Origin: Phytophthora quininea
Taxonomy: Eukaryota > Oomycota > Peronosporomycetes > Peronosporales > Peronosporaceae
DNA: 64,000 nt
Direction of reading: 5' to 3'
Assembly (NCBI GenBank): GCA_011947345.1
Contig: JAAVTG010000323.1
Coordinates: forward strand, 124,001-188,000
Below the pieces are notes generated by a model, which made no database searches, was not told the origin of the DNA, and worked only from the letters and a program-made list of their open reading frames with translations. The translations under genes and the position numbers were made by a program. Shown piece by piece: positions 2,911-42,120 of the stretch (positions are counted from its first letter, which is position 1; every line of letters starts with the position of its first letter).

Positions 2911-2957
2911 ACTGCCTGCCCGGGCTGCCGTCCCGGGGAAAATCGCAGTTCTTAAAG
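2911..2957 (-). other. 3' terminus of outer Helitron-like element
   Basis: This segment aligns with 20228-20277 over about 48 bases with one indel. It begins ACTGC, then has two CCCGGG arms separated by a seven-base loop (a hairpin), then TCGCAGTTCTT. Similarity to the inner copy stops outside ACTGC, which sets the boundary. The TCGCAGTTCTT is inverted at 42107-42117. A hairpin near the 3' end is the family hallmark. Confidence 0.65.
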
Positions 2958-2966
2958 TTTAGTTTT

Positions 2967-2991
2967 GCTTAGCTTAGCTTAGCTTAGCTTA
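2967..2991. repeat. Pentanucleotide repeat (GCTTA)x5
   Basis: Five exact tandem GCTTA units lie just inside the 3' end of the outer element. A shorter CTTAGCTTA lies at the equivalent place in the inner element (about 20279). Confidence 0.9.
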
Positions 2992-3139
2992 GTTAGCAAA
3001 TATTTCTGTCATAAGCCGTTGCTTTGGCGCCGAGGCCTGTAAGTCTTGAAAACCTGCACGGTGCTGCAGAAGGAACTACTAGATGCCCATGAAAGAAATG
3101 AATGCGTTACTGTTTTTTATTGCATTTATTGACGCATTC

Positions 3140-3574
3140 TTAACTCTCTTCTTCGCTACTGGACGATCTGGCCGGGACGGGGATGTCTTCAGGTGTTTCA
3201 CTGCCGACAATTTCTTCCAATTCGCGAAAGATGTTTTCTGGGTCCTCATTTGGTATGTTTTCACCCTCGGTAACACCCACGGATAGCAGTTGGAGACGCT
3301 GCTGCTGTTCTTGACGGCGTCAGTGATATTTCTGAGCGATGTAGGCTCTGAATTGTTCTAGATAGTCTCGATCGGCCTCGTCGGCAGCATTAACAGCTCG
3401 TTGAAAACGCCGCTGAGCACACAGTAGTTTGCTTTCGGCTATATGCAGCTGGTAGTTGTGCGGTTGGTAGGCCCTCCGTAGCATGGTGATCCGTGCATGA
3501 ACTTCTACTAGCACTTGAGATGCTGCTTGTTCGGCGGCAATTGCCTCACATCGATTGGCTTCCGCTGCATCCAC
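3140..3574 (-). pseudogene. Coiled-coil acidic-tail protein, family member A (in-frame stop)
   Basis: This belongs to a small protein family with five members inside the two transposons. The N-terminal two thirds are a helical, Ala/Gln/Arg-rich coiled coil (EAIAAEQAASQVLVEV, then CAQRRFQRAVNAADEADRDY). The C-terminus is acidic, ending in SSSSEEES before the TAA at 3140-3142. An in-frame TGA at about 3318-3320 interrupts it (...AQKYH, stop, RRQEQQQRL), and coding character continues in the same frame, so this is a nonsense change and not a frameshift. Start ATG is at 3574. Similarity to member B at 6453 is clear in the coiled-coil part. No function is known. The layout suggests a nuclear or histone-binding accessory protein, by inference only. 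Confidence 0.55.
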
Positions 3575-3751
3575 TCCCGACTGAAAATGAGGCGTTGAGA
3601 GCCGTCGTCACATTTCCTATCGAATTCCTTAGCTTATCGTAGTCAACTTCGGTCACTCGACATTCATCGCCAATCCATCTTATAATCATAACTAGCCGAG
3701 CGCCGCCGCTACGCGGTGGTGGGATATGGTTGGATGCAGCTGTGTGGACCG

Positions 3752-3776
3752 CCCGCCTCCGCTACGCTCCGGCGGG
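3752..3776. repeat. GC-rich hairpin
   Basis: CCCGCC and GGCGGG form a 6-bp stem around a 13-base loop. A second GC-rich near-palindrome sits about 50 bases to the left. Both lie between coiled-coil gene A and the end of the helicase relic. No function is assigned. Confidence 0.5.
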
Positions 3777-3885
3777 ATGATTTAACTTTTCGCACGAATC
3801 AGCAAGTAGTTTAATCTAAAACATACAGGCTTAAAAATATTTTATAAAACATGGAAAGTGCCAAGTGCCATTTGTCCAACATAAA

Positions 3886-3930
3886 GCTAGGTTGTAGTTC
3901 GTAGTGGCAAGCTACTACATCTAGCCTAGC
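3886..3930 (-). other. Candidate 3' end of the Helitron helicase relic
   Basis: This sits about 16 bases downstream of the helicase stop codon (minus strand). GCTAGG/CCTAGC and TGTAGT/ACTACA arms form a nested palindrome. Read on the minus strand, a GTAGT/ACTAC hairpin is followed by ten bases and then CTAG, the layout of a canonical Helitron 3' end (hairpin plus CTRR). The base after CTAG is C, not the usual T, so the call is tentative. Confidence 0.35.
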
Positions 3931-3945
3931 AATGCACCTCGACTC

Positions 3946-6190
3946 CTAATTAAAAATCTGCGTGTACACGATGTTTCTCGTGTACACTCCTCCGTCCGGA
4001 TCTACGAACTCTGGATACTCAATCAATGCCTTGAACTTGCTTCGGGAGGTCACGCGAGACAACGCCACATACAATTGGCCATGCGAAAAGCACGGGGAGC
4101 CAAGTACAGCCTCAAGTTTAACACCGTCTGACCTTAGGCCGTGTTAATCGTCATGGCGAATGCTAGTTGCACGGGGAACTGCTTCCGTCGAAGCCGGAAG
4201 GGGAAATCGGAGTTGTCGTCGTCGCTCACGAACATAATTCTCGGGATGAGTACTTCTTGGCCTGTTCGTTCTCCAGTCATAATTGTTGCTCGAATGACGT
4301 GGTCCTTCAAGCCGACGATTCGTAGACGCGTCCCGTTGCACAGTCCAAGATCCGGGTTCAGATTTCTCATTACCATGACGGGGATGCCCTTCTTGAGCAG
4401 TAGTCTGTGAGGTGGAATCCCGTTCATGTTCACCGAGTGGAGGAACTCCTGCTTGAACAACGTTCCGTCATCATCCTCCACCGAGCCCACCGACAAATAC
4501 CCCCGCGCTGTCTCCGGAAGTCGAGCTGCGACTGCCTCGTTGATTCTCCGTACCGTCTCATTTGTAGTCGTCAAAACCGTCCGGCTGGCAAAATATCCAT
4601 TCGTCGCAACCTTCGGATTCGCAACGTCGGCATACATTGCGTCAGTGATGCGGGTCATACCCCTTGATATTGCCCCTGGAGCTATTTCCTTGTCCTCGTC
4701 GTCTTCTACAGGAGGATTCGGGATCAGCATATCAGCAGGAATCTTGATGTAGTCATTGCCAAGATCAGCACGTTTTTCGTGCCGACCCTCCCGACGGCAA
4801 GCAAAAATTCAGAGAAAGACAGGATATCCTCGTCGCTTTCTCCTGTCCCCTCGCTCCCAATGCGCATGTTCTGTGTTAACCGAACCTGCAAAAGTGTCTC
4901 CACAGAGGCGATTCCTTTATACATGCGTTGATCGTTTCTGCAGGCGTGCCTCTCTTCACAACAGGAAGGATCTGGCGGGAATCTCCTGAGAGGACAAAAA
5001 CCTTTCCGCCGAAAGGCTCCCTGGGGTTATCCATAATGTCCCGTAGCATTCGGTCGACAGCCTCAAACGCGTGGCGATGCGTCATCGGAGCTTCATCCCA
5101 AATGACCAAACTGGTCTGCTGGATAAGCTTGCGCAGGTGCGATTGTTGGAAAATCGAACACGTAGAATCCTTGTCCAGTTTCAGTGGAATTTTGAAAGTA
5201 GAATGCGCCGTACGCCCGCCCATGGAAAGTGGAGATCTAATTCCACTGGACGCAACAGCAAGTGCAATCTTTCCATCCAGACGCACCCTGGCCAAAATGT
5301 ATTGAAGTAGCGTAGACTTCCCCGTTCCACCAGGCCCATCAACAAAGAAAAGCTTTTGTGAAACTTCCCGCGTGGATGACCTGCCCCCGTCGTTACGCGA
5401 AGCGCTGGCCGTCGATACCTCATGTCCTGACTCGGCTTCGACGGCTTGTATGATCTGGTCGAATACGGCTATCTGCCCTTCGTTGAGTTTGGCCTCGTCG
5501 CGAACAATAGCCTCCAATGTCCTTCCGCTGTAGCTTTTCTCGCGGCGTATGAGATTGTTGTCGAGAAGGGACTCTCGAACCAAACTCGGGAAATCACTCA
5601 ACTGCGGAAGGTCAAAATCGGTCACAGCATACCCACTCACCTTTAGCAAATCGTTCACGCTTTTTAGCGTCTCAAACGACACCACAGTCTCCCGTGTAGA
5701 CTCGGGGAGGTTCCGGTGCTTATGCGCTATATCCCGATTCAATTCCTCATAGAATTGGTCCCACAACCCACGGACATCTCTTGGCATCGGGTACACTAAC
5801 AGTGTACTGAAGAGCTGTCGAAGTTGGTATGGGATCTGAAAACTTGCAGCCTCTGTCATGCATGCAGCCCACTCTTGATCGTTGTCAAGATATCCCAATT
5901 GTAACGCTGCGTCCCAAAACGTGGGACATACGACGCCGTTAACTGTCCGTAAACTCTCGAACGATGTAGGTCCTCTTCGATTACAGAGCAATATTCGGAG
6001 GAAAAACTTCTCGGCGTCCGGGGAGGTTACATGGATTATTCTTTCTAGTACCTCTCTCTACTGCTTGCGCCAAACCCACTACTTCTCTTTCCAAACGAAC
6101 TCCTTGGGGATGTCCTTGTATAGCATCGTCTTCGCAAGCGAGCGCAGGTAACGTTCCCACGCTCCATCGCGTTTGGGTTTGGTTGTGTGT
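3946..6190 (-). pseudogene. Relic of a canonical Helitron PIF1-type helicase (5' truncated)
   Basis: This is the C-terminal helicase part of a RepHel protein from a Helitron lineage different from the two large elements. In coding order it has KTMLYKDIPKEFVW and FFLRILLCNRRGPTSF near 6000-6130 and Walker A GPGGTGKSTL near 5310. Next come Walker B VIWDEAPM near 5095 and FVLSGDSRQILPVV near 4990. The last parts are HRLLLKKGIPVMVMRNL near 4395 and HGQLYVALSRVTS near 4050. The stop is TAG at 3946-3948. Decay: stops near 6060-6085, one-base frameshifts near 4890 and 4770, and a TAA plus a frameshift near 4135. The Rep nuclease half is absent. Similarity fades near 6190, the 5' truncation point. 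Not functional as read. Confidence 0.85.
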
Positions 6191-6304
6191 GGACTATGTG
6201 TGTGGGGGACTACTGTCGACCTCTTCATTAAGTACGTTTGGTGTGTACCACCCTACTATTGGTGTGGTCCACGTCTCGGGCCGCCTTCGCTCCGCTCGGC
6301 AGCG

Positions 6305-6363
6305 ATTGGCTAAAACTCTTTTTGGCGAATGGGCGCCGCCGTCGCTGGCGCTCGGCAGCCAAT
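6305..6363. promoter_or_regulatory. Inverted CCAAT-box pair upstream of coiled-coil gene B
   Basis: ATTGGCT (6305-6311) and AGCCAAT (6357-6363) form an inverted pair inside a GC-rich stretch about 90 bases before the ATG of gene B. A promoter role is an inference from position and motif only. Confidence 0.25.
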
Positions 6364-6452
6364 GGCAGCGCCGGATCTTGTCCATCGAAACTCGGCGACA
6401 GACCGACCTACGGACAAACGGACAGACAGCAAGTCTCTAGTAGTAGTCTAAG

Positions 6453-7221
6453 ATGAATGAAGAGTTCAGCAGCGACGACGAGAACGTTAATCACCGTGGT
6501 CGAGCGCTAAATGCCGAAGTAGTCACGTTTAACGCGCTCAAGAGACAGCATCGTCGACTTCGCAGCCTCCGAGATGAGCTTGGTGAGAATGACATCGTGG
6601 TTCGCATTGCAGCACAGCACCTGCAAACACTGCGACGGCAATTTGAACGAGCACGCGCAACAACCGACGACGCCTTCAGTGACTGGGCGCGAAATTTGGG
6701 CGGCTACGTGCTAACGCAGCGCGAGCGCCAGCACCAAGAACAAGACGAGGAACTGGCAGCGTACGAGCAGGTTGCGGGGGCGTCGGTGATGTGCAAACTG
6801 ACACGGCAGGCCCGACAACAGCCGCCACATGTGCCTAAGCCACGTCGATGCCGTCCATTGAGTCGCTGAAGCGGGTGGCTGCTGACGACGCGGGAGGGAG
6901 GTCTATGAAACGAGTAAATCGGCTGATGAATATTGCAGGGGGCAAATTGGCTATAATCAGTGAAGCGGACCGTGAAGCGTCGCGCAAGATTGAGCAAGAA
7001 GCAGAGGGCAGCGATGCTGAAGGTGCGGTGGGCAGCGAGGAGGAGAGTGCAGAAGAAGAAAAAGAAGTTGATACGCGCGACGACAGGGATGAGGAGTGTG
7101 GTGCCGAAGAAAACAAGGCGATACCCGCAGCACCAAGGCGAAGACACGGCAGTCAAGACGAGCTGAAGATAATGATAGTGATTACACTCCGACTAGCGAT
7201 GACGTAGCTGGTTACGGTTGA
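6453..7221 (+). CDS. Coiled-coil acidic-tail protein, family member B (frameshifted)
   Basis: Start ATG is at 6453. An acidic first segment (EEFSSDDENV) leads into a coiled coil rich in Arg, Leu and Gln (residues about 25-110). A Lys/Arg stretch resembling a nuclear localisation signal and an Asp/Glu/Ser-rich tail follow (EQEAEGSDAEGAVGSEEESA, then DNDSDYTPTSDD), ending at TGA 7219-7221. The coding character changes frame near 6850 and again near 7140. Member D shows the same domain order, which tells which frames belong together. The convergent neighbour 115 bases away is a histone H4 gene on the other strand, the same pairing as member E with the second H4. Function is unknown. An acidic tail next to a histone gene would suit a histone chaperone, as inference. 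Confidence 0.55.
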
Positions 7222-8169: not shown

Positions 8170-8850
8170 CTAGGACCGCGGTATTGCGATGGATGATTGT
8201 AGCTGCTTTTGATAATGTCTGTCCGCGCGCAGGTCCAAGTTTCGCTGGTGTCTTCTTTCATCCCGCTCTAATATATACATTGCTTTAAGCTCGCGCACAA
8301 CCGTTGCTTGGAACCGTTCTAGTTGTTGGGCTAATAGGCGATGCTCGATCCGGCACGAACAGTTTGGATGGTCTGTACCTCGTTCCAACTCCCTGGTACC
8401 GTCTCCTGTTCCAAAAGCGTTGCCCCTCGTCTTATCAGCGGTCCCAAAATTCCGAAGACAGTCGCGTCCGTCTGCGTATTCATCCCTGCTAGTTTTCGGG
8501 TGCGCATGGCTGTCTCCTTCGCTCCGATCCTCCGCCCCAACCTCTTCCCGCTCGTCGCACATGGGGCCCTCGACTCGTTGCGGTCACAATACGAGCGCTG
8601 GTTAAGCTGCTGCTTCGCACTGCGTGACAACATTTGGGCATCGGATAGTTTGCTGGCGTGGCGATGCGTCCGACAGAGATTGGTGAACTTCCGCTTCAAG
8701 CTGCCAATTCCACGAAACCTGTTGTCGGGTTCCAGCGCGTTGTAAGCGGCTGCAACAGCCTCCCAGTCAGCTGGTTTCGCCGGCTAAACTCGTCACAAGA
8801 TGAAGTTGCTCGCGCGTGCTGTAGTTGCGCGATCCCTGGGTTTTTGGCAT
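8170..8850 (-). CDS. SANT/Myb-like DNA-binding protein, outer-element copy (frameshifted)
   Basis: This is the homologue of the better preserved gene at 30856-31562. Start ATG 8850 gives MPKTQGSRNYSTREQLHLV, matching the first SANT-like helix of the other copy. The conserved ADWEAVAAAYNALEPD and SLKRKFTNLCRTHRH follow in other frames, so two or more one-base shifts are present (near 8790 and 8560). The C-terminus is a charged helix (ELKAMYILERDERRHQRNL) ending at TAG 8170-8172 and also conserved in the other copy. The architecture resembles oomycete DUF6818-type Myb/SANT-like proteins. The predicted role is sequence or chromatin binding in the nucleus. It is encoded on the same strand as H4 and the OB-like gene, as in the inner element. 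Confidence 0.55.
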
Positions 8851-9670: not shown

Positions 9671-10521
9671 CTTTCAATTTGCGCTATGGGTGGACGAAGT
9701 CGCGGGTATGCAAGCCACGAGGATGCGCTCATATCTTACCTATTCTTATGCCCACGCACACATTTCGATATATATTGTGCTTTTGGTTTGCAAGAACATG
9801 ACGCACAGTGATGCGTCTCCAGTCATGTCACGTGATCCGTGTCCTTGATCTTTGCCAGGCAGACCAGTGGCGTCCTTAAACTTTATTCCGTAGGCCACAT
9901 GAACTTCGATCTGTCCCTGGTTTCTATCTGAAAGGCCAAGACGCAGCCAAAGCGGAGATGTGCAACGAAGTAAACATCGCAATATGCTTTATTTTATGCC
10001 GCTGTCGTACATTTTGATCTATCCCAACGTATCAGCTACCAGACCTCTGCCGTATCCAAAACGAACTTCGTTTCCATCCTGTCCCTATTTTCTTCCCGCT
10101 AGGCCAGCTTGGTAACACTCCAAGAGGATGAGAGACTCCTCTTCGCTCGATATGTTCCTGCCGTTTTCACTGACACAGGATGCACCCATCGGGTACATGA
10201 GCAAGGAGCACGTTAATGTTCAATCGGGATGTTGATGCGTTTTGTTCGATATGGTCCAGAGGCCCGACGAGAAGCGATGTGAGCAAATACAACTGATCTG
10301 GCAAAACTAGTCGAATGCTGCTCGAAGTTTGCCATCCTCAACTTCAACACGCGGAAAAACACCAGCCTTCACAACAATAGTTTGTCTTTTTAGGCAGATA
10401 TTGCTGTGCGGTGACGTGTAGTCTTAACGGTGGATTCAGCGAGGCGCACATATCCTGCAGATATGCGCTCATTTGCAATTCTGCGCCATCCTACCGAAGT
10501 CCTTCAACAGCCATGACCGCA
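9671..10521. other. Divergent intergenic region, no gene recognised
   Basis: This separates the OB-like gene (leftward) from the 2OG-like/C2H2 gene (rightward), as 32493-33043 does in the inner element. It is probably a shared promoter region. No conserved coding frame was found. Confidence 0.45.
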
Positions 10522-11268
10522 ATGAACACCCGTCAACATTTGACCGAGAAAGGGTACATCGTTTTCTACAAGGCTGTCACCGACGAGACGACCAACAAGT
10601 TCCTCGACTTTGCTCGCCACGAAGAGTTAAATTGGAGCAATGACACTAGGAACGGAGAAGCCCTCGACATCTACCGACCACGTGGTCTGCTACCAGATTA
10701 TGTTAGCCGCGCGCTGACAGCGGCCTTCCGCCGCCACTACAGAACGTTTTTTCCGAGCTCGACGGCAACAGAATGGAGTTTGCTCACGACGCAAGCGGGA
10801 GCTCCGGACCAACCGGTTCGCCGAGATTTCCCACCACCACTGCCTGACATGAATGCTGCGAACGTGCAAGGGGTACCAAGGGCGCTACTGTTGGCCACCA
10901 AGGACAACACTGTGATTTACAGATACGGGTGGAACAAGCTGGTTGCGCTTCGCTCGAACGTGGAAACCATTCGGTTGAACAAGGGCGACATGCTTCTCTT
11001 TCGGGGTGACTTTATCTATTCACCCGCCGGGTATCTGACGAACAACCTGTTCGTCCACGGATTTCTGAACTCACCATTCTACCCTCGCGATATTGGCATC
11101 AATGAGCCACTCCTCGTTGCTGTGATTGACGACCTGTCCATCGTCGACGACCTGTTCTGTTTTGTCCACAACTGCGACTTTGTTGCCACCGGAACAATGT
11201 CGCTGCGCCGACACCTGAACCGCTTTCACTCTTTCTTCTTCGGGAGGCCACGAAGCCCAAGTACATGA
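10522..11268 (+). CDS. 2OG-oxygenase-like protein with C-terminal C2H2 finger, outer copy
   Basis: This is an intact frame of 248 residues from ATG 10522 (another in-frame ATG lies at 10513). The start is chosen because the inner homologue begins at the same place (MNTRQ/MNARQ). Residues about 1-205 resemble a 2-oxoglutarate/Fe(II) oxygenase or phytanoyl-dioxygenase-like fold, notably LNKGDMLLFRGDFIYSPAGY followed by NNLFVHGFL. The usual metal ligands look lost: the HxD site reads RRD (DQPVRRDF) and the distal His in the RGDxxH motif is Tyr. Both changes occur in both copies. The C-terminus is one classical finger, CFVHNC then 12 residues to H-x4-H (RRHLNRFH). The likely role is a DNA-binding pseudo-enzyme. 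It is cargo of the transposon, divergent from the OB-like gene. Confidence 0.7.
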   Translation: MNTRQHLTEKGYIVFYKAVTDETTNKFLDFARHEELNWSNDTRNGEALDIYRPRGLLPDYVSRALTAAFRRHYRTFFPSSTATEWSLLTTQAGAPDQPVRRDFPPPLPDMNAANVQGVPRALLLATKDNTVIYRYGWNKLVALRSNVETIRLNKGDMLLFRGDFIYSPAGYLTNNLFVHGFLNSPFYPRDIGINEPLLVAVIDDLSIVDDLFCFVHNCDFVATGTMSLRRHLNRFHSFFFGRPRSPST

Positions 11269-12135: not shown

Positions 12136-15100
12136 TCATTTACAGCAGTAGTATTTTGTGTTTCCACCACTGGTAATCGACATCACGGCATTAAGTGCCT
12201 GAAGTGTGGCAGTGCTCAGTTGTTGTAGGCGGTCCTCCTCATCAAGAGCCTCCTTGGAGAGCCTGGCCCATCTTGTGATCTCGTCGGTCAGTGGGCATAG
12301 TGTCCGAAAGCCTAGTCTTGATGTTACTCTAGAGACCAGCAAGTACGGCTGCTCACGCTTGTTAGACATTCGATTCTCAGACCGCCACTCGGTAACAACC
12401 ATTTTGTCAAGAGTTCCTCCTTGCACTTTATACACAATTGATGATACTGCGCACACCATGGGGAATTACTCGACACGAACGGACAAAGTGCGTGGATTTC
12501 GTTCTGAAGTCAGCGCTAGTGAGATGTGGCTTTCGCCATACGGTCGGGCGTCGGGAAAGAGAGGAAATAAGTCGGAATCCAAACAACCTTGCATGGCAGT
12601 CGCCATCGAAGCTCGTCGGAAGAGTACAATCAACGCTAGGGCGCGACACTTGGGATTTTTACAATGACGTCTTCAACACTGTCGCGCACGTAGCAAAGTT
12701 CAGTATCCTCCCTGTAGATGATCTGCTCCAGTGTGCCCAGCGTCCCGCTCGCAACCATTTTTGCGGCGCGAATGTTCTGAGTAATTTGCACCGGCATGCC
12801 GACTATCAAATCGAGATAAGGCGCCATTCTGCCGAACTTGGTGTCCAGGAAACCCATTACATTTCGGATTTCCGATGAACCAATTTTATCTAGTTTACCA
12901 CCAAAATTAGCAACAATCCGTTCAGGACACTCCCTTTCGGCAACAGCCTGGCCGCTGTTGCAACGAATAAATTGTTTATCGCCAGCCGCGTCGTATTATC
13001 TGGGGTTATAAAACAAGGCACCGAATCGCTAGACTTCCATGTTTCAGAGACGTTGGCGTTGCTAGAAACTCTCAAATTGATCAGGTCGACAAATTCGGGG
13101 AGCCACACACCTTGCGAGCGAGTTGACACCCGCGACCCTATTCCGGATCCGCCCTAAATCGAATACACTCGTCCAGCACAATCACACGGTCGAAGAGCCT
13201 CCACAACTTATACCCGGCGAAGTCGTCCACCGCTGAGTTCTGGCTCTCGGAAGGGTTCTTGTAGAGTGGGGCCCCTCCCACCGGTGGTAGCTGAAGAAAA
13301 TCTCCCACAAGAACCACATGAAATCCACCAAACGGTAGGCGTGAGATTTTCTTAGCTATTCTCAGGTATTCGTCGAGCTTCGCTAGCTCATGTTTCTTCA
13401 TCATTGAGATTTCGTCGATGACCAGGATGTCCAGGTAAATTGCCGCTTTTCGGCGCTTCTTTTCAGCTGGGGCAGCAAACTCGCCAATGTCCCCCTCCTA
13501 TTATCGTTGCAGCCTTTCCGGTAAGTGCTGCTTTGATAAGACAATCAGAGTGGTTCCAGGTTTCACACAACTTCTGGACGGCATCGAGCACCCGGCTTTT
13601 GCCAGTACCACCCTCACCCCCAAAAAAAAAAAAGCAGCTGGTCCTGCCCAAGATCATCGTTAAGGTCGCCATCTGTGTAGCTCATATCCTCCACCTTTCT
13701 CCACCTCGTAAGCAAAGCAATTCCGATGAGTCTAAATGTGTTGTGCTGCTTCTCGTTGAGCGTGAAGTGCTGCGATACTGCTGTGATGGTGGCAAAATTT
13801 CCGTCCGCGCTGCCAAGGGGAACATATAGAGTGTGTAGCGAGTTCCGCCATGACGTTCGTTCATCCAGCAGCGCATCATTCCACAGTTCAATCACCTCGG
13901 CGTCCCTAGTGGCAATTTGAGGCTGGACACTCTGGTGGAGTTGGCAGTCGGTTGCTGTATTCTGGACCCAGGAGCACATGTTAGGAACGCTAGGAAACTC
14001 GGCCGGTGCGATTGCCTGCCTGCGAGAAACCGCGCTGAACGCGTTGCCTTCCAGCATCCGATGGGCATTGAATACTCGAAGAATTTTGGTCACACGCGAA
14101 TCCGGTGTTGCGGAAGTTGGGATTGTGACTGGGTCGAGGCTTGTGCTATCGGGTAGAGCGCTAGGGTCGAAGTTCTGTAATTCCCAAGGATCAGCAAGCT
14201 TGTCTTTTTTGGGGGAGGTTATTGGCCTATTCTTCTCCATCCATGGCATCACAATCGTTGAAAAGAAAATCACCACCATCACTTGTGCTATCCGCGTCGC
14301 TGTCGGATAGCGCGCTTGGTGAAGAAGCTCTATCACTGTCGCTGCGCACATCTTCTGCATTAGCTATCGCTCTATCCGTTCCGCAGTAATAGTCGTTGAT
14401 GTGACTCATTATCTTCGCCACGAAGTCGCTGCGAGTGCATTCCCACTGTTCGTACGCATCGAGCCATAGGTGTTCGGAATCTGTCGCCGAACCTATTAGA
14501 TCGGCCAGGCTACGGAGGGGTTTGAACAGCACCAGCGACAGCACAGCATGCTTGTATCGAACGCTTTCTGGAGAGTGACTCGCAACATACGGAAGTCCCT
14601 GAATGACAGGAACAACTTCACGGTAACGCCTGCCGAGGCTGTGGGTGCGATGCAGTGAGTGCCCTGTGTGAAATGCTAATCTCTCCTTCCGCGTCGACTT
14701 ACCCTTCTTCCTGAAGTAGCTCATCGCGAATTCGTAGATGCTGACAGCCGCAAGCTGGTTGGGGTGGAAGACGTAATCGTCCAAAAAGGAGACGGCCTGG
14801 AAGCGTGATGTTTCAGAGTCGCCGCTTTCATCGACAAGATAGCATGAATGCTCCTCCTCCGTGCAGAGTTGCGGCAGGATGTCGTGAAGGGAATGTATGA
14901 GCACCTCGAAATTTCATAGCAACACGAGCCGCGGTACATATACAGAGCCGCCAGCGGCCCAGCCACCTCCTGTCGGTTAGTCATGTCGTAGACCATTGAT
15001 GCCACACGTTTCTTCGCCTTGGCAACTCGGTCGACGACCTGCGCTTGGAGGCACTTTGCCGTGGGCTTCTCGCTCCTGCTGTCGCTGAAACGAGGCCAGG

Positions 15101-20227: not shown

Positions 20228-20277
20228 ACTGCTTACCCGGGCTATCGTCCCGTGGGGAGGTCGCAGTTCGTAAGAAC
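20228..20277 (-). other. 3' terminus of inner Helitron-like element
   Basis: It begins ACTGC. A hairpin of CCCGGG and CCCGTGGG arms with a seven-base spacer, and the 17-base inverted-repeat arm TCGCAGTTCGTAAGAAC, follow. In element orientation the inverted-repeat arm lies inside the terminal hairpin, the asymmetric arrangement described for the Helitron2/Helentron lineage. Confidence 0.65.
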
Positions 20278-23418: not shown

Positions 23419-23867
23419 ATGGAGAGCTCGCCCGAGTACATTATGCGGCAGTAGGCAATTGATGCAGAAGTCAGAGCATTCGATCGCTTGGTAGCAGCCT
23501 TAAGAGGTCTTCACGAGGCCCGTGAACTTCACGACGCAAATACTCCTGTCGTCCAGAGAGCTGTGCACAATATTCAGGCCAGAATGGTGGCGCACGTTCA
23601 GTTGCTGATGATGCTGATGAGACGTACGTTGAAGCTATCCCCAGATTGGTTAGTGAAGAACTTGCAGCGACACGAAATCAACGTCGGGAGGAACAAGAAC
23701 GTCGCCTCCGTGTGCTGCGAGCACCACCACCTGGTGGTCAAACGGCTCCATCACCACGCAGGACCGCCCAGGAACGAAGCCATGACAACGATGAAGCCCC
23801 AAACCCGAAGCGAGCCAAGGAGCGTGAGAGAGTTGCGATTATCGTGATAGATGGATCCGAAGATGAC

Positions 23868-23993
23868 GAAATGGGAATTTTCGAGCAAGAGCGCGAAAAT
23901 AGCTTTTCAAGGAAGGCAGCGCAAGATGAAACCAACGCACGAAGCCGTAGGTAGTTCCTGCTCGTTAGTTTCAGATTTCTCTCTCGCGTCTAA
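23868..23993 (+). repeat. Ngaro split repeat A1
   Basis: 126 bp, matching 29910-30035. It begins GAAATGGGAATTTTC and ends GCGTCTAA. The first GAAA also ends repeats B1 and B2. Confidence 0.93.
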
Positions 23994-24053
23994 GGCCCTC
24001 GCTCTCTCGCTTCAGCGTCTCTACCCGCTTTCAGCTCCCTTTGCTCCGGAATT

Positions 24054-26083: not shown

Positions 26084-26104
26084 CTCGCCGAGGGTAGATC
26101 GGTT

Positions 26105-29996: not shown

Positions 29997-30035
29997 TTCC
30001 TGCTCGTTAGTTTCAGATTTCTCTCTCGCGTCTAA
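29910..30035 (+). repeat. Ngaro split repeat A2
   Basis: 126 bp, matching A1 at 23868-23993. It overlaps B1 by four bases. Confidence 0.92.
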
Positions 30036-30037
30036 CC

Positions 30038-30134
30038 CGCCACGCCACACCCTGGCAGCGGGGGCGCTGTAATACCAACTTTCATTTGTGCCGTTCTCGG
30101 CACGCCCCCGAAGAGAAAGCAACGACAATTGAAA
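30038..30134 (+). repeat. Ngaro split repeat B2
   Basis: 97 bp, matching B1. It ends at the downstream host junction GAAA|GTGATG, where coiled-coil gene E resumes in frame. Confidence 0.92.
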
Positions 30135-30855: not shown

Positions 30856-31562
30856 TCACGCTGGACTGGAAAGCGACAGCACGCACTCCTGCATCTGTTT
30901 ATGATAGCGCTGGACAGAGCGCAAATCTAGCTTTCGCTCGTCTCGCTCGATCTGGTGAATGCGTTGCAGCTCATGAACTATCTCCGTTTTCATCGCCGTG
31001 ATGCTCCGCTTTAACCAACCGCTTCCTCCGTCACGGGCACAGTTCTCTCTCCCTCCGTGTAAGCGATGCAGTCTGACTCGTGTTCAGAGCGTTCTTCACT
31101 CGTTGCGTGACTAGCAGCCGGCGCCACATCAGCAGCATGCTCACGAGCAAGTTCGCAAGTAAGCTGTATACCTTGGGTATTTAACTCGTGTTCGTCTGCT
31201 CCACACACCGTCTGCATCGCCCTTGAACCAGCTACTTTTGGTGAAGATGGCAGACAAAGCGTACGACCGTGGCGGCGACGATACACCCGCTCATCGACTT
31301 CCTGCTTGACCTGACGCGCCCATTGTTGCACTTTCGTCATCCTCAGCTCTTCAGAGCGCTCACACGCGCGCCAAAGGCCATTGAATTTTCTCTTCAAGCT
31401 CTCAGTGGTGCGAGCATGGGTTGGCAAACCTATTTTCGCGTTGAATGCAGCTTGAACAGCTTTCCAGTCTGCTTGATCAACGGGAATCACTCGGCCAATC
31501 TCCTTGAGAAGCAGAATCTGCTCACGGTAGGTATAATTACGAGACCCCAGCTTCTTAGGCAT
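30856..31562 (-). CDS. SANT/Myb-like DNA-binding protein, inner-element copy
   Basis: Start ATG 31562 (MPKKLGSRNYTYREQI). Residues about 8-75 form a SANT/Myb-like three-helix domain: TYREQILLLKEIGRVIPV, QADWKAVQAAFNAKIGLP, then TTESLKRKFNGLWRACE. This matches the layout of oomycete DUF6818-type proteins. A basic linker (RVYRRRHGRTLCLPSSPK) and an acidic stretch follow. The uninterrupted frame stops at 31011, but a one-base shift there continues into WLKRSITAMKTEIVHELQRI and IERDERKLDLRSVQRYHKQM, ending at TGA 30856-30858. That segment is conserved in the outer copy. Predicted nuclear DNA- or chromatin-binding protein, on the same strand as H4 and the OB-like gene. Confidence 0.65.
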
Positions 31563-31790
31563 CTGCACAGTGATCGCCAGTTAAGTAAACGATGTGTAGC
31601 TAGCGTACGGAAGTGACTTACTGTAGCTGATGTCTTCCGCCGCCCGAGCAAATTGCGCACTGAGGGAGTTCTGCCGGAAGGACGCAAACTGCAAGCGTTT
31701 TGTTTTGCCAATCAGAATTAGGTTTTATGCAAGCACTCGACATTTTATGCAACCTCTTCTTCGTGAGCCAGCATGGTCGCTGCCGTGCCG

Positions 31791-32492: not shown

Positions 32493-33043
32493 GGTTCGGA
32501 TTGGATTATGATCGAGCGGGACGCATATCCAGCGGGACGTCAGCTAAAATGGTGTGGCGAGCGAATATGAAGTTTTTTCATATACATGCCCATCAGGCGT
32601 GAACGGCAGTATCAGGTGATATAAGTGTACCTCATCGAAGTCCGGGTAGCAAACAAACTGTGTTATTTATCCCATCACGGGGCTGTTCCCGCTAGGTATC
32701 GGCCAAAGGTGTACTTGCACATCCATGAAGTTTGTGGTGTCATCGACACACTCACTTGAATCTGCCGATGGCATAGGCTGTGGATATGTCGTGACATCAG
32801 GAGCATTGCACTCCCTCCAATGTGATCTTGCCAGGGCGCAAATATCAGCAAAATTTTGTTTTGTCTTGAAGTTGTAATGTAAACAATAAACTTCAACATG
32901 TTCCCTTGACACACGCACATGCATGTAGGTAGCTAAGGGCTGGATCTCGTTGCTGTGGATATGCAATGGATATGCCAATGTACAGACGGATATGTGTTCA
33001 CTTCTCAATTTACCTGCTTCTACAGACTGCCTTCTCCACACTG
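32493..33043. other. Divergent intergenic region
   Basis: This is a probable shared promoter between the leftward OB-like gene and the rightward 2OG-like/C2H2 gene. No conserved coding frame was seen. The layout is the same as 9671-10521. Confidence 0.45.
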
Positions 33044-33781
33044 ATGAACGCCCGTCAAGATCTACTCGAGCAAGGATATATTATCCTCTACAACGCTGTT
33101 TCGGATGAGATGGTGGACAATCTGCTCTCGATTGCTCGCCACGACAACTTGGCGTGGAGCAACAGAACGTGGAACGCAGAGGCATTTGATACGAATCGGC
33201 GCCGCGCGGCACTTCCTGACGCCATCAGTCGTGTCTTAATGGTGGCCCTTCGACCGCTATACTCGACATTTTTTCCACATGCGTCGGCGACGGAGTGGAG
33301 CGTGTGGCGCACATTTGCTGGGGCTAAGGATCAGCCTGCCCGTCGTGATTTCCAACCGCCTATTCCGGGCCCCAACGCGGCGGATCTGAGTGGTCTGCCT
33401 GCCTCGCTCTTCATGTCAACCCAGGACGACACTGTGGTGTACGGGTTCGGATGGAACCGCTTCGTGGCGATTCGCTCGAATGCCAACATGCTGCACTTGA
33501 ACAAGGGCGATGTGATCATGTTCCGAGGTGATTTTATCTACGCACCGGCAGGGTACGAGACCAACAACTTCGTCGTGCAAGGATATCTAGACACTCCGCG
33601 ATACCAGCGCAATGTGGAGGATGATCTACCGCAGACTGTTACTCTCATTGACGACGTCTCGGCAGTGGATGACCTATTCTGTTATGTCCATAACTGCCCA
33701 TACGTGGCGAACGGAAACACCTCGCTACGCCGGCACCTGAACAGATTTCATCACCTCATCTTTCACAGGCTGAGGGCTTAA
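33044..33781 (+). CDS. 2OG-oxygenase-like protein with C-terminal C2H2 finger, inner copy
   Basis: This is an intact 245-residue frame from ATG 33044. An upstream in-frame ATG (32966) exists, but the outer homologue supports the later start. Shared blocks with the outer protein are RQ.L...GYI..Y.AV, ATEWS, DQPARRDFQPPIP, LNKGDVIMFRGDFIYAPAGY and the C2H2 finger (CYVHNC, then H-x4-H in RRHLNRFH). The HxD iron site reads RRD and the distal His position reads Tyr, as in the outer copy, so oxygenase chemistry is unlikely. This is the best preserved cargo gene in the damaged inner element, which hints at continued use or recent decay of the rest. It likely acts in the nucleus as a DNA-binding factor. 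Confidence 0.7.
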   Translation: MNARQDLLEQGYIILYNAVSDEMVDNLLSIARHDNLAWSNRTWNAEAFDTNRRRAALPDAISRVLMVALRPLYSTFFPHASATEWSVWRTFAGAKDQPARRDFQPPIPGPNAADLSGLPASLFMSTQDDTVVYGFGWNRFVAIRSNANMLHLNKGDVIMFRGDFIYAPAGYETNNFVVQGYLDTPRYQRNVEDDLPQTVTLIDDVSAVDDLFCYVHNCPYVANGNTSLRRHLNRFHHLIFHRLRA

Positions 33782-35216: not shown

Positions 35217-37658
35217 TTACATCTTCATTTTCACCAAAGTCCTCTCCGACAACCTTTGCAGTCGCTTCTCTTCTGCAAGAGCGTCATCTGGCGGCTTTGC
35301 CCAAGCAATTATATCCTTTGTAAGAGGGGCAAGCGTACGAAAAGCCTTGCGCGAAGTTACACGCGATACAAGCAAGTATGGCTGCTGCCGTTTGTTAGTT
35401 AGGCGGTTTTCTGATCTCCATTCGGTCACGACCATGTCACTCAATGTCTCGCCTTGCACTTTATACACCGTCGACGCCACGGATCATACCATGGGAAACT
35501 GCTCAATTCGAAGAGATAGCGATCGTGGATTTCCTAAGCTGCTCGGGGCCAATTTGATGTCACAATCTGCAAACGGACGTGCATCGGAAAACAGGGGGAA
35601 TAAATCTGAATCAATAGAGCCCAGCATTGATTTAGCCGACTGTCCTCGAGGAATCCTCACAATGACCGCAGGAGGTGGGATGCTCGGGATTTTGACGGTC
35701 ACATTTGCTGCACTATCGTGAACAATGCAAAAAGTGGTGCCCGGGCTGAAGATAATCGTTTCTAAAGTCCCATGTGTCCCGTTCGCTGCCATTTTTTCCG
35801 CTCTAACGTTTTGCGTAAGTTGCACTGGCATGCCCACAATTAGGTCTAGATATGGCGCCATTCTGCCAAACTTTGAGTCGGGTAGCGCCATCACTGTCCT
35901 GACCTCTGATGCTCCTAACTTTGCCAGTTTTCCTTGGAAGTTTGCGACTACTCGGACAGGGTACTCTCCTTCTGGTTGCAATTTTGCGGCTGTATGAATG
36001 AACAAATTGTTGATCGAGAGGCGCGTTACATTGTCGGGCGTGATGAAGGATGGTACCGTGTTACCAGGTCTCCAGTCATTAAACACCGTCTGGGTGTTGC
36101 CAACAACGCGAGAGTTGATAATTTCGACAAATTCAGGCAGCCACGCTCCCTGTCGAGCATTCCTGCACCCTCGACCCCACTCTGGGTCCCCTCGAAAACG
36201 AACAACTCCTCCAGAACAATAACATCGGTAAAAGATAGCCACAACTGGTAGCCCGCAAGATCGTTAGGTGTGGGTCGACGCCTACCCGTCCAGGGTTCTT
36301 TGTACAGAGGTTCTCCTCCTACTGGAGGCAGCTGCAGGAAGTCACCGACTAATATCACATGAATACCTCCAAACGCAACACCAGGTACTCGTTTCGCTAC
36401 CCGTAGCAGTTTGTCTAACTGAGCAAGCTGGGACTTCCTCATCATTGACACTTCGTCGATCACTAAGATGTCCACGCAGGCCACAGCAGTTGCATTCTGT
36501 TTTCTGCGAAGCTGAACCATGAGACTGGCTAGCGTTCGGCCACTAATGACGGTGGCGGCCTTCCCCGTGAGGGCAGTCTTCACTATGCAATCGGGGCGCT
36601 GCCAACTAGAGCAAAGCGCCTGAACGGCATCGAGTACTCTACTCTTACCAGTGCCTCCTTCACCGCCCAAAAACATTCTGAGTTGGTCTCTCTCTAGGGA
36701 CTCGTTTACATTGCCGTCCAGGTATGATGCGCCCTCGATGTGCCTCCATCTATTCAGCAATGCTCGTCCAATGAGCTTGAAAGCGTAGTGCTGCTTTTCG
36801 TTGAGTGTGAAATCTCGTGATATGTCTGCTATCGTAGCGTAGCTCTTTGTCTGCTGAGGAGCTGTTAGAACACGAGGTGAATCCCACACCATCGTCGATT
36901 CATCTAATGCATCCGCCAACACTTCAATAACTCGAGTTTCACAGAGTCGAGCTTCATCAGGGGATGGAGCTTCACGAAGGTTGCAATCTGTAGCCGTGCT
37001 CTTGACCCATTTGCGCATATCAGCGATGTCGGGAAGCTGTCTGGTGTTGCTGCCTGGAGCTGATGCGCTACTGTACTTTGACCGCTGCCTTCTAGCATGC
37101 AATGAGCTTTAAAGACGCTTAGGATTTTAGCTACGCGGCTTTCGGGAATAGCTGCAGTAGGGAACACAGCTGGGTGAAGTGCTTGGCTGTCTAGTACTAC
37201 GTCATCTCTGCTGGCATCTTCTAACCACGGGTTAGCGAAGGCACCCACGTCATCACCAGGTTCGAGTTCATCATCGCTGCCGTCAAAGTCCACAGCGCCA
37301 TACAATGAATCATAATCGCTATCGCTGCCATCCTCATCACCGTCATCAGTTCCCGGGCTCGTGTTATCGTTAGACGCGTTATCCACGTGTGAGCTTTCTT
37401 TTTCTGCCCCACCGTGATAATCGTGGATATGATCCATGATTGCCTTTACGAAATCAGAACGCGTTGGCATCCATTCATCGTATGCATGAAGCCACTGCTC
37501 ACCGGCGTTATCAGTCGAGCCAGTTAGGTCTGATAACTCTAGAAATGGCTTGAACAAAATAAGTGATAGTATTGCATGTTTGTAGCGAATCTCATTGGGC
37601 GAGTGCTCATTGACGAAAGGTAGTCGAAACCCTGGATAACTGGGACAACTTCTTGATA

Positions 37659-38043
37659 CAGATTTCCCGGCAGATCTGGAAAGGTGGGACCCATAAAGAC
37701 TGCAAATCTACAAAGCCTTGGGGATTTTCGACATGACGGCAATGTAATGAGGTCTTGTTAATAGCATCAGCACCTGGCCGATTGTGAGCCGGACGTACTT
37801 CTCTTGCAGAGATGTTGATGGCATGGGGAGTTCGTAAATGGTGTCGCCGCCGTCGTGCACGTGTATCACCGCAATGACTAACCTCCATCTTCAGCCCTCC
37901 ATCTTCCACCGCCAACTTGCAACTACCAATGCTAATCTAAAACAATACGTTAGTGATTCGTGATCAGCAAATCGCACTGCTGAACTCGACAACTTTATAA
38001 GGTTTATGTGCAGGTCCAGGTCCAGATCTGCCGGGGAAATCTG
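37659..38043. mobile_element. 385-bp MITE with 22-23 bp inverted ends and TA target duplication
   Basis: The left end CAGATTTCCCGGCAGATCTG is mirrored at the right end (one extra C in the run). TA flanks both sides (37657-37658 and 38044-38045). In the outer RepHel the flanking residues are continuous (GRRY-REVVPVIQG), whereas here the insert separates GKRY from EVVPVIQG. The excised sequence with one TA restores that frame. A TA duplication points to a Tc1/mariner-type transposase acting in trans. No transposase is encoded. Confidence 0.88.
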
Positions 38044-40210
38044 TACCGCTTTCCCAAAGTATGTGTACGGTGCAACGGGTGGTCGGCCTTGAACGGATAT
38101 TTTGATGGCCTTGCAAAAGTGTTTTTCTTCCGGAAATACATCATTGCAAATTCATAGAGATTGACACCGCTCAAGCTATCTGGTCGATAGAGATAGTCGT
38201 CTAAGAACGACACAGGATGATACCGTGGGAGCTCCCATCGGGACTTTCACTCACAAGTTGGCACGAATAGTTGTCAGTCGAGCACAGCTGGTGAACAATG
38301 TCTCGGAGCGGCAAAAGACACAGCCTGAGCTTTCATAGCAACACGAACCGCGATGGAGGTGCTTTCACGTCACCAAGCACCCTTTGAACGGCATGTGTTT
38401 ATTGGCATTAGGATCCATTCCCAGCACGTGCTTAATAAACATATCAACTTTATACATGAACAGGCGAGCAGAAGCACTGTCGTTGCCTAGGTTGGCTTCC
38501 CATAATTCTGCTTTGCTAGGAAGCGAGGCTTCTAACATGTCAAAAGGGATTCAACTGACGTCTTCCCCGCGTAGTAGGCTGTGCCGAATGAATTAGCCGT
38601 GTTCGGAGTTAGCGTAAGAAATAATGTCGGCTGACCGAAGCGCATTTGGTACGCGATTGCCTTCTGCCTGCATTTTGCCCGCTCTGCGTTGCTACCCCAA
38701 ACGGCAGCAAACGCCACTTCGACCGTCTTCAAAACTTTGTGCGCGATGGACTTCGTATTGCTGTCTGGTCGCCGCCCTTGCTGGCGCTGCTCGTTTTCGA
38801 TTAGCGCACGCTTCAATTCACTAGCATTTAATGCCTCGTATCGATCATACATCTGCGGGAATCGCTGGCAGCGAAATGCGTTCTGAGTGTACATGTTTTT
38901 CATGGAGATACGATCGAACGCAACCACTGTAAAGAGTTCATCTTCAGCGAACGTGCGGCTGGAGAGCATCGTGTAGTGCTTCACGCACTCTCGTTACGAC
39001 ACCGTAATGCGTCTTGCCTCTCCAGGATACCCGCGGCCAAAGGGAAACAAATGAGGGAACATTTTGGCGAGCAGATTGCCAGAAACGTCCATTGATAACT
39101 TATTCGATCGCTTCACCAAAACCTGTCTATCGAGGCCGCGATCTCCAGCTCCATTGCTATCTGCATTTAGTTCCTCTGATAGCAGCACCCGTGACGCATC
39201 GGACAATCCGATTCTCCTTTCAACAACGTTCAGTTCATCGTTTTGGTTGTCTACCTGCCAGTCGCCAGCGTGGCCTCGAACATTTTCTTGATCCGCATTC
39301 ATAGCATTCTGTATCGCACCTCCTTCGTCTTCGATATGTTCAATCTCAAGCTGGCCGGCAAGCCCAGCCTCAATTAGTTCGTTCAGCGCACTGTTGTTCG
39401 GTGTCACAGATGCATATAGACAATTGTTGAGTCTATAGAAGTCCAAAACATCCCGTACGCGCTGGCCCCGAATCACATGCATTTTCTTGATCTTACTAGT
39501 CTGCTCCTCCGTAAAATCGCCAACCATGGCGACACGAAACGTAGAGACTTCTGAAATTGACTGAGGTAAAAGTGATAGTGGCAGGCCTGGCGTACAGTCA
39601 AATACGATGCTGTGGGAGCGAATGCAGCGGTGTCTACCACCACGCATGACACGTGTCATGGCGGCAATGCTCACCAGTTGCGTCATGAAGCGCTCTGGTA
39701 ATGTAAAATCTTGTGCATAACGATCTGGAAGAGCTCCAATAAAAATCCATTTGAAATGGCGAACTTAGGAAGACGCCCACGTTCAATGGAAGTATTGCAG
39801 GCGCTGCACACGGTAAACCACGCCGTTTAATGTCCACTGCGGTTGGTGTAACAGTGAAAACTGCGAGGAGAGACCACTGTATCTGCCAAATATACCACAC
39901 ACGGCGGTGTTGTGTATTGATTTCTTAGCGCAATCGGGATTGTTGTGTCTGCCTCGGCCAAACTGCGTCGCATCTTAGCTATGTAGTTCCAGTCAGACGC
40001 CTCTTTCCGTACAGCTTCCTCTCGACGTACTAGCCGATCGCATGAAACGCAAACGCATTCCTCCAATCCTTCCGGGCCCAGAGCTTGGTGAAGTCTTCTC
40101 AAGGCTTTACCACGGTCATTGTCACTGAGTGGTGTCAGCAGTCTTTTTCACTTGGTTCAGCATAGGTGTCGGCAGCTGCAGTACTGCTACCAACGTTATC
40201 GTCTAAAGCC

Positions 40211-40369
40211 TTGGTGGTACCGAGTTTCTTAAGTGCAGCGTTGCTATCTTCAGCTGTCTTAGTGATACCGAGTTTCCTGAGCGCAGCGCTGCTATCGCCA
40301 GCAGTCTTGGTGGTAACGAGTTTATTGACTGCAGCATAGCTATTGCAAGCGGTCTTGGTGATACCTGAC
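40211..40369. repeat. 48-bp tandem repeat, 3.3 copies
   Basis: Units start at 40211, 40259, 40307 and 40355 (partial). On the minus strand in one frame they encode a 16-residue unit (LGITKTAEDSNAALKK-like). This is the end of the RepHel N-terminal region and is not seen in the outer copy. Confidence 0.85.
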
Positions 40370-41240
40370 TTTTTACTACAGTCCTGTCGTTCACCTTTGC
40401 TTTCTTAGCACCCGCTACGCGCTGGCGGTGTTTACGTTGATACAGCCGGTTCCTCGCTCGAACGTCACGGGCTCGGTGCTGAGACTTCACAATAGCTCGT
40501 GCAAACGAAGCCAGCGCTGGAATGTCCACTTCGCCATCTTTATCAAACGGTGTGAGATGGTCAAGTGGGTGGACACTTCCATGGCTCACGTCACCACCGA
40601 GAACTTCACTGGACTTGTCCCTGCCGGGTTCACTTTCCGTGTGAACAACGGCATTCTCCAGCTTGAAGGCATAGTCCAGATGCATTAGCAGGTCATCTTC
40701 GTCCGGTGGCACGCTATCGGGATCACCACCAGCTGTCTCTGGTGCCCTAACAACAGGCGATGTTGTACCGCCCCGTACCCGCAATTCTTCGTCCAACGCA
40801 TGCTTCCTCTTCACACAATCCATTGCAAACAAAGCCACAGATCCAACATCCAATTCACCATCTCGCTCAAACGCAGCAAGATCATCATCACTGTTTGCAC
40901 GGTTTACATTATCACCGATAGCACTGCCAGCGCCAATTCCACTATCTTTCCCACCACCATACTCGGTAGCATTTTCCAGGTCGTAAGCAGCGTCCAAATG
41001 CGTCAACAGATCGTCTTCGTCCAAACTAGTACTCCATAGCCATTCAGAACCAGAGCTGTCGTTAACAAGCCTGCGACGAGCGTTATCACCACTGCGAGCT
41101 CCACGAGCGCCAGCAGCACCATCACATCCGCGAGCACCGTCCCCATCGAGCACGGGACGAGCGCCATCACCACCACGAGCCCAATCACCGCGAACTCTGT
41201 ATGTAGTGTATTCAACACGTGTTAGCTTGAATATTGGCAC

Positions 41241-41949
41241 TTTCGAAGCACGCTTACCTAGGTCGCTTTATCGCTACTGCAGCTCCTGTGATTGCGCCCG
41301 GATCCGCAGCCAACGCTGGACCTTCAGGAGACGTCTCATTGACCTGATCCCCGCCGCGCCGCCTACGCTTTCCACACGCCACCGCGTCCTCCCTTGCGAG
41401 CATGCCGACCGCTCCTCTGCCCCGCAAAATCCAGAATGACACCAGTCAGCGGGCGAAGGGCGGAGGGCTCCGACGTGAAGCGCAGAGGCAGCCTGGGCCA
41501 TGCCTGCATTTCCAGGAGTCAGCAGCTGCTTCGAGGACATTCCCTCCAGGTTTTGACCAATTCGAACCTGTCGTGCGTGGACGCGACCAGCGGCGTCCTA
41601 GCTTCCTGCAGGTGAGCCACGCGCTCCATCATGAAGCCTGCTTGTGGGGCCTGCTCGCTAGGAAGCGCGCGCTGCTTTAGCGGGCGCCTGCGGCGCCTGA
41701 TCTGTTCCGTAGAGTCATGTTTTGTGCTTCAATTGAAATTCACTGAGAAAAGCGAATTATCCTCATACAATTGCCTAGATAGATAAAACTACTCTTCTCC
41801 GTTTCTTATGTAATTCACACCAAATACCGGTCAGACAGGTAAAAGCCTTTCGCCGAGTGCTTTTCACTATGTAGTCCACATACTCTTGTGTGTAGTTGTG
41901 TAAAAATACCGGTATCTGACAAATCCCTGTGTGTTATAAAAATAGTAGT
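41241..41949. other. 5' non-coding region of the inner element
   Basis: The first 450 bases are GC-rich with open but unrecognised frames. A splice-donor-like AG|GTAAGC on the minus strand near 41258 could join an upstream RepHel exon. From 41700 the DNA is AT-rich with ACCGGT motifs near 41826 and 41910. No gene is called. Confidence 0.4.
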
Positions 41950-41975
41950 AACGACAGTTCTTACGAACTGCGAAC
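41950..41975 (-). other. 5' terminus of inner Helitron-like element
   Basis: This 26-base block matches 42095-42120 at 24 of 26 positions. It contains GTTCTTACGAACTGCGA (41957-41973), the exact inverse of 20261-20277. Similarity to the outer end stops at ...GCGAAC, which sets the boundary. Confidence 0.68.
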
Positions 41976-42094
41976 AACCGTGTCGCGTTTGTATTGTTTA
42001 GTTTGTTCAAGTGTCGTACACCGAAAAACTGTGATTCCTCATGGAATACCGATCAATACCGATGAAAATCGCTGGCGTCACGAAAAATGCCCGC
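41976..42094. other. Detached 5' segment of the outer element
   Basis: This stretch lies between the two 5' termini, so it is outer-element DNA cut off from the rest by the inner insertion. It contains two ACCGAT motifs and no gene. Confidence 0.5.
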
Positions 42095-42120
42095 AACGAC
42101 AGTTCTAAAGAACTGCGAAC
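42095..42120 (-). other. 5' terminus of outer Helitron-like element
   Basis: AACGACAGTTCTAAAGAACT begins the block and GCGAAC ends it. CAGTTCT-AA-AGAACTG is a 7-bp-arm palindrome. The stop codon of the neighbouring gene (TAG, 42105-42107 on the minus strand) falls inside it. Confidence 0.68.

Follow-up and report, generated by a model that had tools for sequence, protein, structure and literature searches.

A 64,000-bp stretch of genomic DNA (hereafter the window; G000:C290:124001-188000, within an 87.2 Mb genome of 993 contigs) carries two large Helitron-like elements, one lying inside the other. The locus raises the question of whether one complete element truly inserted into another and, if so, why it lies 145 bp from the end of its host. 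We propose that the two elements belong to related Helitron2-type families, that the outer element inserted first, and that the inner element, which lacks the catalytic core of its RepHel transposase, was added later near the outer 5' end. The cause that we infer is the opening of this 5' end by RepHel. We assign this explanation a probability of about 0.8.

RepHel is encoded on the minus strand, and hence the right-hand ends of the two elements (42118 and 41973) are their 5' ends. The outer element occupies positions 2911-42118 of the window (minus strand; 17,462 bp without the inner element), as delimited by the joined flanks in contig C693 and by comparison with its family. The inner element occupies positions 20228-41973 (minus strand; 21,746 bp) in the same orientation, its junction lying 145 bp into the outer element, counted from the 5' end. 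The outer empty site was found in C693, where two matches lie adjacent: L016 1-1553 corresponds to window 1356-2913 (95.7% identity), and L016 1551-2781 to window 42119-43347 (96.8%). The 20-mer joining the two outer flanks has an exact match in this empty site. The left half of the inner site was matched at 10 other places in the genome, all of which continue without the inner element; the joined 20-mer is exact in nine of these loci, and the tenth, C790, has substitutions. C420 is intact at the inner site, yet broken 28 bp further on. No target duplication is present at either of the window insertions. Both insertions are established by the C693 empty site and the 10 uninterrupted outer-family places: the outer element inserted first and the inner one later. 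A first-pass annotation of the window had described end blocks whose similarity stops at the same relative base in both elements, an outer element of about 17.5 kb, and a related element 145 bp from the outer 5' end. All of these points stood, including the naming of the 5' end. The boundaries that it gave (2911-42120 and 20228-41975) are correct within 2 bp of the empty-site values, and the empty sites break at the bases it predicted.

The end blocks recur elsewhere in the genome. The outer 5' end, used as a query, matched 12 places in the 87 Mb; 10 places outside the window match from base 1, and eight of them stop at base 60, which corresponds to the element border plus the host T. A relaxed 5'-end pattern found 21 places and its reversed control none. 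Because of these counts, the matches cannot be attributed to chance. Further long copies with the same ends, which the first-pass annotation had advised looking for, were found for both families and range from 13,984 bp to ~26.3 kb. In the outer family, the clean copy on C530 is 13,984 bp long, and end coordinates give ~15.0 kb for C537, ~15.4 kb for C790 and ~16.5 kb for C645 (the last two lengths include inserts, and the body of C537 is covered in part only). The inner family comprises, besides the window copy, a clean copy of 15,309 bp on C578, C263 (~16.6 kb) and C517 (~26.3 kb including inserts), the latter two again measured from end coordinates. The outer element in the window is ~92-97% identical to C530, piecewise, and the inner one ~96-98% identical to C578. 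Short stretches align between the two families at ~70-79% identity, and two pieces of 40-45 bp reach 84-88%. The two families are thus different but related.

The elements in the window are longer than the clean copies because of later insertions, which likewise explain some of their extra genes. We therefore could not uphold the earlier view that they are unusual in length and in carrying at least six genes in addition to RepHel. Clean copies measure only 14.0 and 15.3 kb, near the ~14 kb of proto-Helentron-Pi from Phytophthora infestans, and the extra genes include several that do not belong to a Helitron. Those on the plus strand at 24-30 kb form part of a retroelement absent from C578, and the PIF1 gene (4.1-6.1 kb) belongs to a separate 2.77 kb repeat.

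The termini of both elements are of the Helitron2 type. In RepHel orientation the 5' end reads T/TCGCAGTTC..GAACTGTCGTT, the slash marking the border between host and element. The outer 5' terminus (TCGCAG..; 42095-42118, minus strand) and the inner one (41950-41973, minus strand), identified from the sequence and by pattern scan, each form a palindromic asymmetric terminal inverted repeat (ATIR) or hairpin. The 3' end consists, in order, of an inverted copy of the 5' start, a CCCGGG..CCCGGG hairpin, and GGCAGT in the outer or AAGCAGT in the inner element. As read from the sequence, the outer 3' terminus spans 2911-2957 (minus strand; ATIR 2943-2957, hairpin 2919-2937), and the inner one spans 20228-20277 (minus strand; ATIR 20261-20277, hairpin from 20236). 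The 3' end of C263 has one base fewer than the inner AAGCAGT form. Compared with shuffled sequences, DNA folding of the 5' hairpins gave z values of -3.2 (outer end, in its C530 form) and -3.0 (inner); folding of the 3' hairpins was weaker (-1.5 and -1.6), the predicted pairing being partly with the ATIR.

The host bases before the 5' end were compared among 15 distinct flanks. These derive from the 21 pattern places after dropping L069, a chance-like match without a preceding T, and merging shared flanks (C331 with C645, C646 with C647, and a group of four including C614). T occupies position -1 and A or T position -3 in all 15, and A or G position -2 in 14; the next host base at the two window sites is A in one case and C in the other. 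The elements insert after WRT without duplication. As in Helitron2, the 5' ATIR lies 0-2 bp from the 5' end and forms a hairpin, and the 3' ATIR is subterminal, upstream of the 3' hairpin. A canonical Helitron1 would share the 5' TC, but not the CAGT 3' end or the insertion after T. Assignment to Helentrons is disfavoured as well, since insertion is not in TT and no endonuclease domain fused to RepHel was found in the subset of open reading frames (ORFs) scanned. Both ends and target also differ from those of proto-Helentron-Pi, and the same scan of ORFs yielded no SET match.

The outer family carries the motifs and domains of an HUH-Y2 Rep and a PIF1-like helicase, and the HUH and Y2 motifs are also present in C263 of the inner family, with frames shifted or broken. 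The catalytic part of the outer Rep lies at 15136-16132 (minus strand), with the HUH motif from 16132 (GTLHIHML) and the Y2 motif from 15159 (YCTKYVTK); Pfam matches Helitron_like_N on 15635-16291. The two motifs were found in the window-outer element and C530, in different frames in both. The helicase part of the outer RepHel was recognised at 13141-13497 (minus strand; Pfam PIF1, 6.9e-14), and that of the inner one at 36029-37108 (minus strand; Pfam PIF1, 3.6e-17). Among the best 120 of 238 matches to the inner helicase, the top homologs with a species name belong to Phytophthora aleatoria, P. cactorum, P. nicotianae, P. lilii, P. palmivora and P. megakarya. The N-terminal part of the inner Rep (38535-39764, minus strand) carries DUF6570 and covers positions 5-122 of the 191 of Helitron_like_N. 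Our motif search found neither HUH nor Y2 in the inner element of the window or in C578. Instead, ~1.23 kb of Rep core containing both motifs is missing at 38360-38361 (minus strand). C263 retains this 1.23 kb, with GRGTLHVH and YCTKYVTK in different frames, and C517 continues across the same point without it. The loss is thus common to three of the four inner-family copies (window, C517 and C578). We also considered the extra 1.23 kb of C263 as an insert and rejected this, since the sequence is the Rep core missing from the other three copies. A search of PDB sequences with the Rep pieces returned nothing relevant. Judged from its coding content, the inner element of the window is best seen as a non-autonomous derivative, and it probably moved in trans because its Rep catalytic core is missing.

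The position next to a relative's 5' end is not peculiar to the window. In total we observed four such nestings, at 56 (C440), 117 (C420), ~121 (C263) and 145 bp (window) from the 5' end of a relative. On C420, 117 bp of outer-family 5' end are followed by ~13.5 kb and then by the remainder of the outer 5' region. The insert bears T/TCACAG.. at one side and a 3'-type end with the CCGGCCCGGG stretch at the other, and is oriented opposite to its host. On C440 (L035 1495-1595), 56 bp of an inner-family 5' end precede, in tandem, the 5' end of a different family, ATCGCAGCTC..GAACTGTCGTT. As no inner-family body was matched on C440 (among the best 40 of 91 and 40 of 83 candidates), this locus is probably a composite that has already moved. 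On C263, a motif scan of the retrieved loci revealed another 5' end ~121 bp from the inner-family copy, in opposite orientation. The joined flanks of C263 gave 11 matches as a query: two to C263 itself, five spanning the junction, and four pieces on C13 and C664. The junction-spanning matches are continuous (C199, 1-322; C854 and C510, 6-322; C578, 8-316; C681, 8-322; 74-77% identity). The seven contigs with this site share a common 5' boundary, and their flanks are different except that C854 equals C510. These uninterrupted copies confirm the nesting on C263. The outer family showed two Helitron2-type inserts, both of them at most 145 bp from the 5' end. Beyond these cases, the elements' own ends and the chance-like L069, the motif scan, which permits three substitutions and which diverged ends escape, detected no other 5' ends in the retrieved loci. 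The suggestion of the first-pass annotation that a terminal sequence is targeted therefore gains from three further cases (C420, C440 and C263), whereas targeting as the cause of the recurrent nesting is an inferential step; the overall interpretation of that annotation is partly supported.

A separate arrangement was seen at the 5' ends on C614 (L058), C786 (L062), C552 (L066) and C420 (L065), which belong to two different families and yet are preceded, from the same junction on, by common LINE (long interspersed nuclear element)-like DNA of at least 1.4 kb. Repeated hits on one base of a shared repeat were entertained as the origin of this common upstream DNA, and set aside. The same four loci are without ~61 bp present in four of six sampled copies of the repeat, the other two copies differing further.

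The explanation that we prefer unfolds as follows. The outer element first entered a host stop codon, separating its T from the AG. An inner-family derivative without the Rep core, probably mobilised in trans, subsequently landed behind a T at 145 bp from the outer 5' end. As the probable cause, we propose that RepHel, which opens DNA starting from the 5' end, binds, nicks and unwinds the 5' end of a relative, given that the same 5' motif would allow the same enzyme to act. The first 100-150 nucleotides of the relative would then become single-stranded beside the bound transposase, and the circular intermediate of another element could join at the opened 5' end. Helitrons can occur as circles, as described for canonical Helitrons and FoHeli1 (PMC5148889). 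The composite, in which two tandem 5' ends now precede the inner 3' end, could be mobile as a single unit. It is tempting to extend this idea to Helitron2 elements in general, such that they aim at the opened 5' ends of relatives, circles of other, even non-autonomous, families join there, and composites with tandem 5' ends arise repeatedly; we offer this extension tentatively, with the odds somewhat against it.

Several points weigh against our explanation. The nesting cases are only four, two of which (C420 and C440) surfaced through end-sequence queries that favour end-proximal cases. C440 may be one old composite, as the inner-family body is unmatched there, and the 13.5 kb insert of C420 is known from both ends, not from its middle. 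The motif scan, which misses diverged ends, showed none of the outer-family copies inserted at the 5' end of a relative, and the same applies to the inner-family copies on C517 and C578. The orientations are mixed, C420 and C263 being opposite to their hosts and C440 and the window element running in the same direction, and therefore a simple single-strand model is insufficient by itself. Finally, the A+T fraction of the first 150 bp is 0.56 and 0.58, versus 0.47 and 0.49 for the whole elements, and this composition could itself attract inserts.

The same observations bear on four other explanations. Inserts might land anywhere, and the 5'-proximal ones might survive or spread more, since two 5' ends leave a composite able to move. 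C440, resembling a composite that moved, and the Fusarium elements with two 5' ends at different places (PMC5148889) would fit such a selection bias. However, the composite junction of the window was found only once, and C263 and C420 are opposite to their hosts and would not give rise to such a composite. We consider this bias unlikely, albeit deserving of serious attention. Chance combined with a local base preference, namely WRT in A+T-rich DNA with relatives being common, appears rather unlikely. The WRT flank rule is loose, A+T content is higher in the first 150 bp than over the full length, and other transposons have also inserted in these elements. Nevertheless, finding both outer-family Helitron2-type inserts within 145 of 13,984 bp has a probability of 1.1e-4. 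Four of four within 145 bp, for a search zone of 1,500 bp, corresponds to 8.7e-5 (5.4e-4 without the window case), and two of four inner-family sites at most 150 bp from a relative's 5' end to 1.8e-5, even assuming 1,000 such ends; all of these values are rough arithmetic, ignoring ascertainment and local composition.

Template switching or recombination between shared termini of 24-36 bp, rather than insertion, could also create composite 5' ends. The first 24 bp can be identical across families, and C614, C786 and C552 compared with C420 represent two different families that have the same DNA upstream of one junction, over at least 1.4 kb. In the window, C420 and C263, on the other hand, the junction is found 117-145 bp into the host element, with both host halves and both insert ends present. 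The window in particular is hard to reconcile with template switching, as the host sequence on the far side is present, and we regard this route as improbable. An assembly artefact joining two repeats is very improbable: repeats do break this assembly, and several copies lie at contig ends, but both insertions restore exact empty sites.

The elements described here can be compared with known systems. proto-Helentron-Pi (PMC4067079) comes from an oomycete, measures ~14 kb, has a RepHel without an endonuclease domain and additional ORFs, one of them on the opposite strand, makes no target duplication, and had its border defined through an empty site. It has a 5' TT, a 3' CTAG, A/T insertion and a SET domain, whereas the elements described here have ATIR hairpin ends, a 3' CAGT and insertion after WRT, and no SET match was found in the ORFs scanned. 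The Helitron2-like FoHeli elements of Fusarium oxysporum (PMC5148889) resemble ours in their ATIR ends, 5' T, insertion after T and self-insertion. They also include double 5' ends repeating 31-85 bp, attributed by the authors to self-insertion, and one copy lying 2 bp from another; the 31-85 bp repeats fit the same 5' zone as the nestings reported here. FoHeli elements are fungal and ~5-11 kb long, and the part of that paper covered does not suggest that they aim at the 5' ends of relatives. The nested elements of the window, in contrast, are both complete end to end and come from different families. The Helitron2 of Bao and Jurka 2013 (PMC3627910) shares the terminal 5' ATIR hairpin, the 3' ATIR upstream of the 3' hairpin and the 5' T; our elements add a size of 14-15 kb and a conserved accessory gene. 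The algal non-autonomous CRe elements in the same paper have target duplications, which the window elements lack. In maize (PMC3288121), nesting is also a source of composites, but the Helitrons are canonical with CTAG 3' ends, and the worked example has three 3' ends.

Phytophthora elements of ~14 kb with extra genes, Helitron2 ends, and nested or multi-ended Helitrons in maize and Fusarium are thus prior art. What seems new, among the papers considered, is an oomycete-like genome in which large elements of different families form complete nested pairs, with both levels documented by empty sites, and a repeated 5'-proximal position. These data bear on the target choice of Helitrons and on the origin of double-ended composites, and the nested pairs with empty sites catch a step that was inferred in Fusarium from short duplicated 5' ends. 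If true, aiming at 5' ends would represent both a mode of Helitron targeting and a source of new families. Should the 5'-end bias hold in a census, it would yield a testable prediction on where and when rolling-circle integration happens.

Comparison with the clean copies exposed the later inserts. A 2.77 kb PIF1-helicase repeat in the outer element (3682-6452, minus strand) gave 34 matches in a genome search (best 20 of 158 candidates), long copies being 93-95% identical. C610 has three copies head to tail, and C815, C692 and C312 contain arrays. No Rep domain was found in the two ORFs scanned. We had considered this stretch as a second RepHel and rejected the idea in favour of a separate repeat, which looks like a mobile or tandem-amplifying element in its own right. 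The inner element carries a retroelement-like insert (23868-30134, plus strand) that is missing at the corresponding point of C578, C263 and C517. Its split direct repeats are 100% identical (23868-23993 to 29910-30035, and 29817-29913 to 30038-30134), and it has a weak tyrosine-recombinase match (Phage_integrase, below the Pfam cut-off); it is therefore probably a recent DIRS/Ngaro-like insert. Two shorter inserts with terminal inverted repeats were recognised at 19154-19905 (0.75 kb, outer) and 37669-38044 (0.38 kb, inner), neither being assigned to a strand. Other copies have interior inserts too: 3.1 kb in C790 and 2.4 kb in C645, both with inverted ends, and two in C517, one of 6.8 kb resembling a long terminal repeat element and one of 5.1 kb of unclear kind. 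Inserts were defined as gaps of more than 1 kb in copies among the best 38 to 40 candidates per comparison, which leaves out a 0.37 kb gap in C790. None of the four interior inserts inspected at their ends has a T/TC.CAG Helitron2 end.

Both families retain an accessory ORF that is encoded on the other strand from RepHel, at 32966-33781 in the inner element (plus strand; 271 aa, with a possible C2H2 finger at the C-terminus) and at 10411-11268 in the outer one (plus strand; 285 aa). Sequence search found seven homologs and profile search 22, including those seven, and the named ones are all from Phytophthora. Taken together with the homologs of the inner helicase, this makes an oomycete close to Phytophthora the likely source of the DNA. 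More distant relatives, with RepHel and accessory-region matches side by side, occur on C225, C574, C573, C173, C507, C786, C552 and C290:262830-268903. No Pfam or NCBIfam match above the cut-off was found for the accessory protein (NCBIfam being searched with the inner version only), no useful match among PDB sequences was found, and Pfam zf-H2C2_5 appeared in two of nine members with a best E of 0.069. AlphaFold2 gave no usable model, the mean predicted local distance difference test score (pLDDT) being 28.8 with nine sequences and 36.9 with 24. The protein may possess a beta-sheet core and a C-terminal C2H2 finger. proto-Helentron-Pi encodes a 266 aa protein (PMC4067079); a link of the accessory gene to EEY64853 of P. 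infestans gained no support, as the 22 matches include no protein of that species. A DUF6818 ORF in the inner element (31011-31568, minus strand) has a counterpart in the outer one (8334-8783); copies of this ORF exceed the Pfam cut-off in the inner family and fall short of it in the outer. Near both 3' ends lie short, similar-looking charged ORFs (20577-21029, 21576-22298, 23455-23844 and 6839-7204), possibly a small gene family, although no clear family was found for them.

Two observations concern the surroundings of the outer element. In the C693 paralog, its insertion point falls within the stop codon of a 403 aa ORF (L016 1552-2760), after the T and ahead of the AG. The window copy of this ORF (42105-42881) has a few codons added by the outer element, and its frame is also split upstream. 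Two copies of a glycosyl hydrolase family 3 gene, inverted relative to each other (477-2768 and 46313-48607; 94% identical), flank the outer element, and a third copy lies on C693, beside the empty site.

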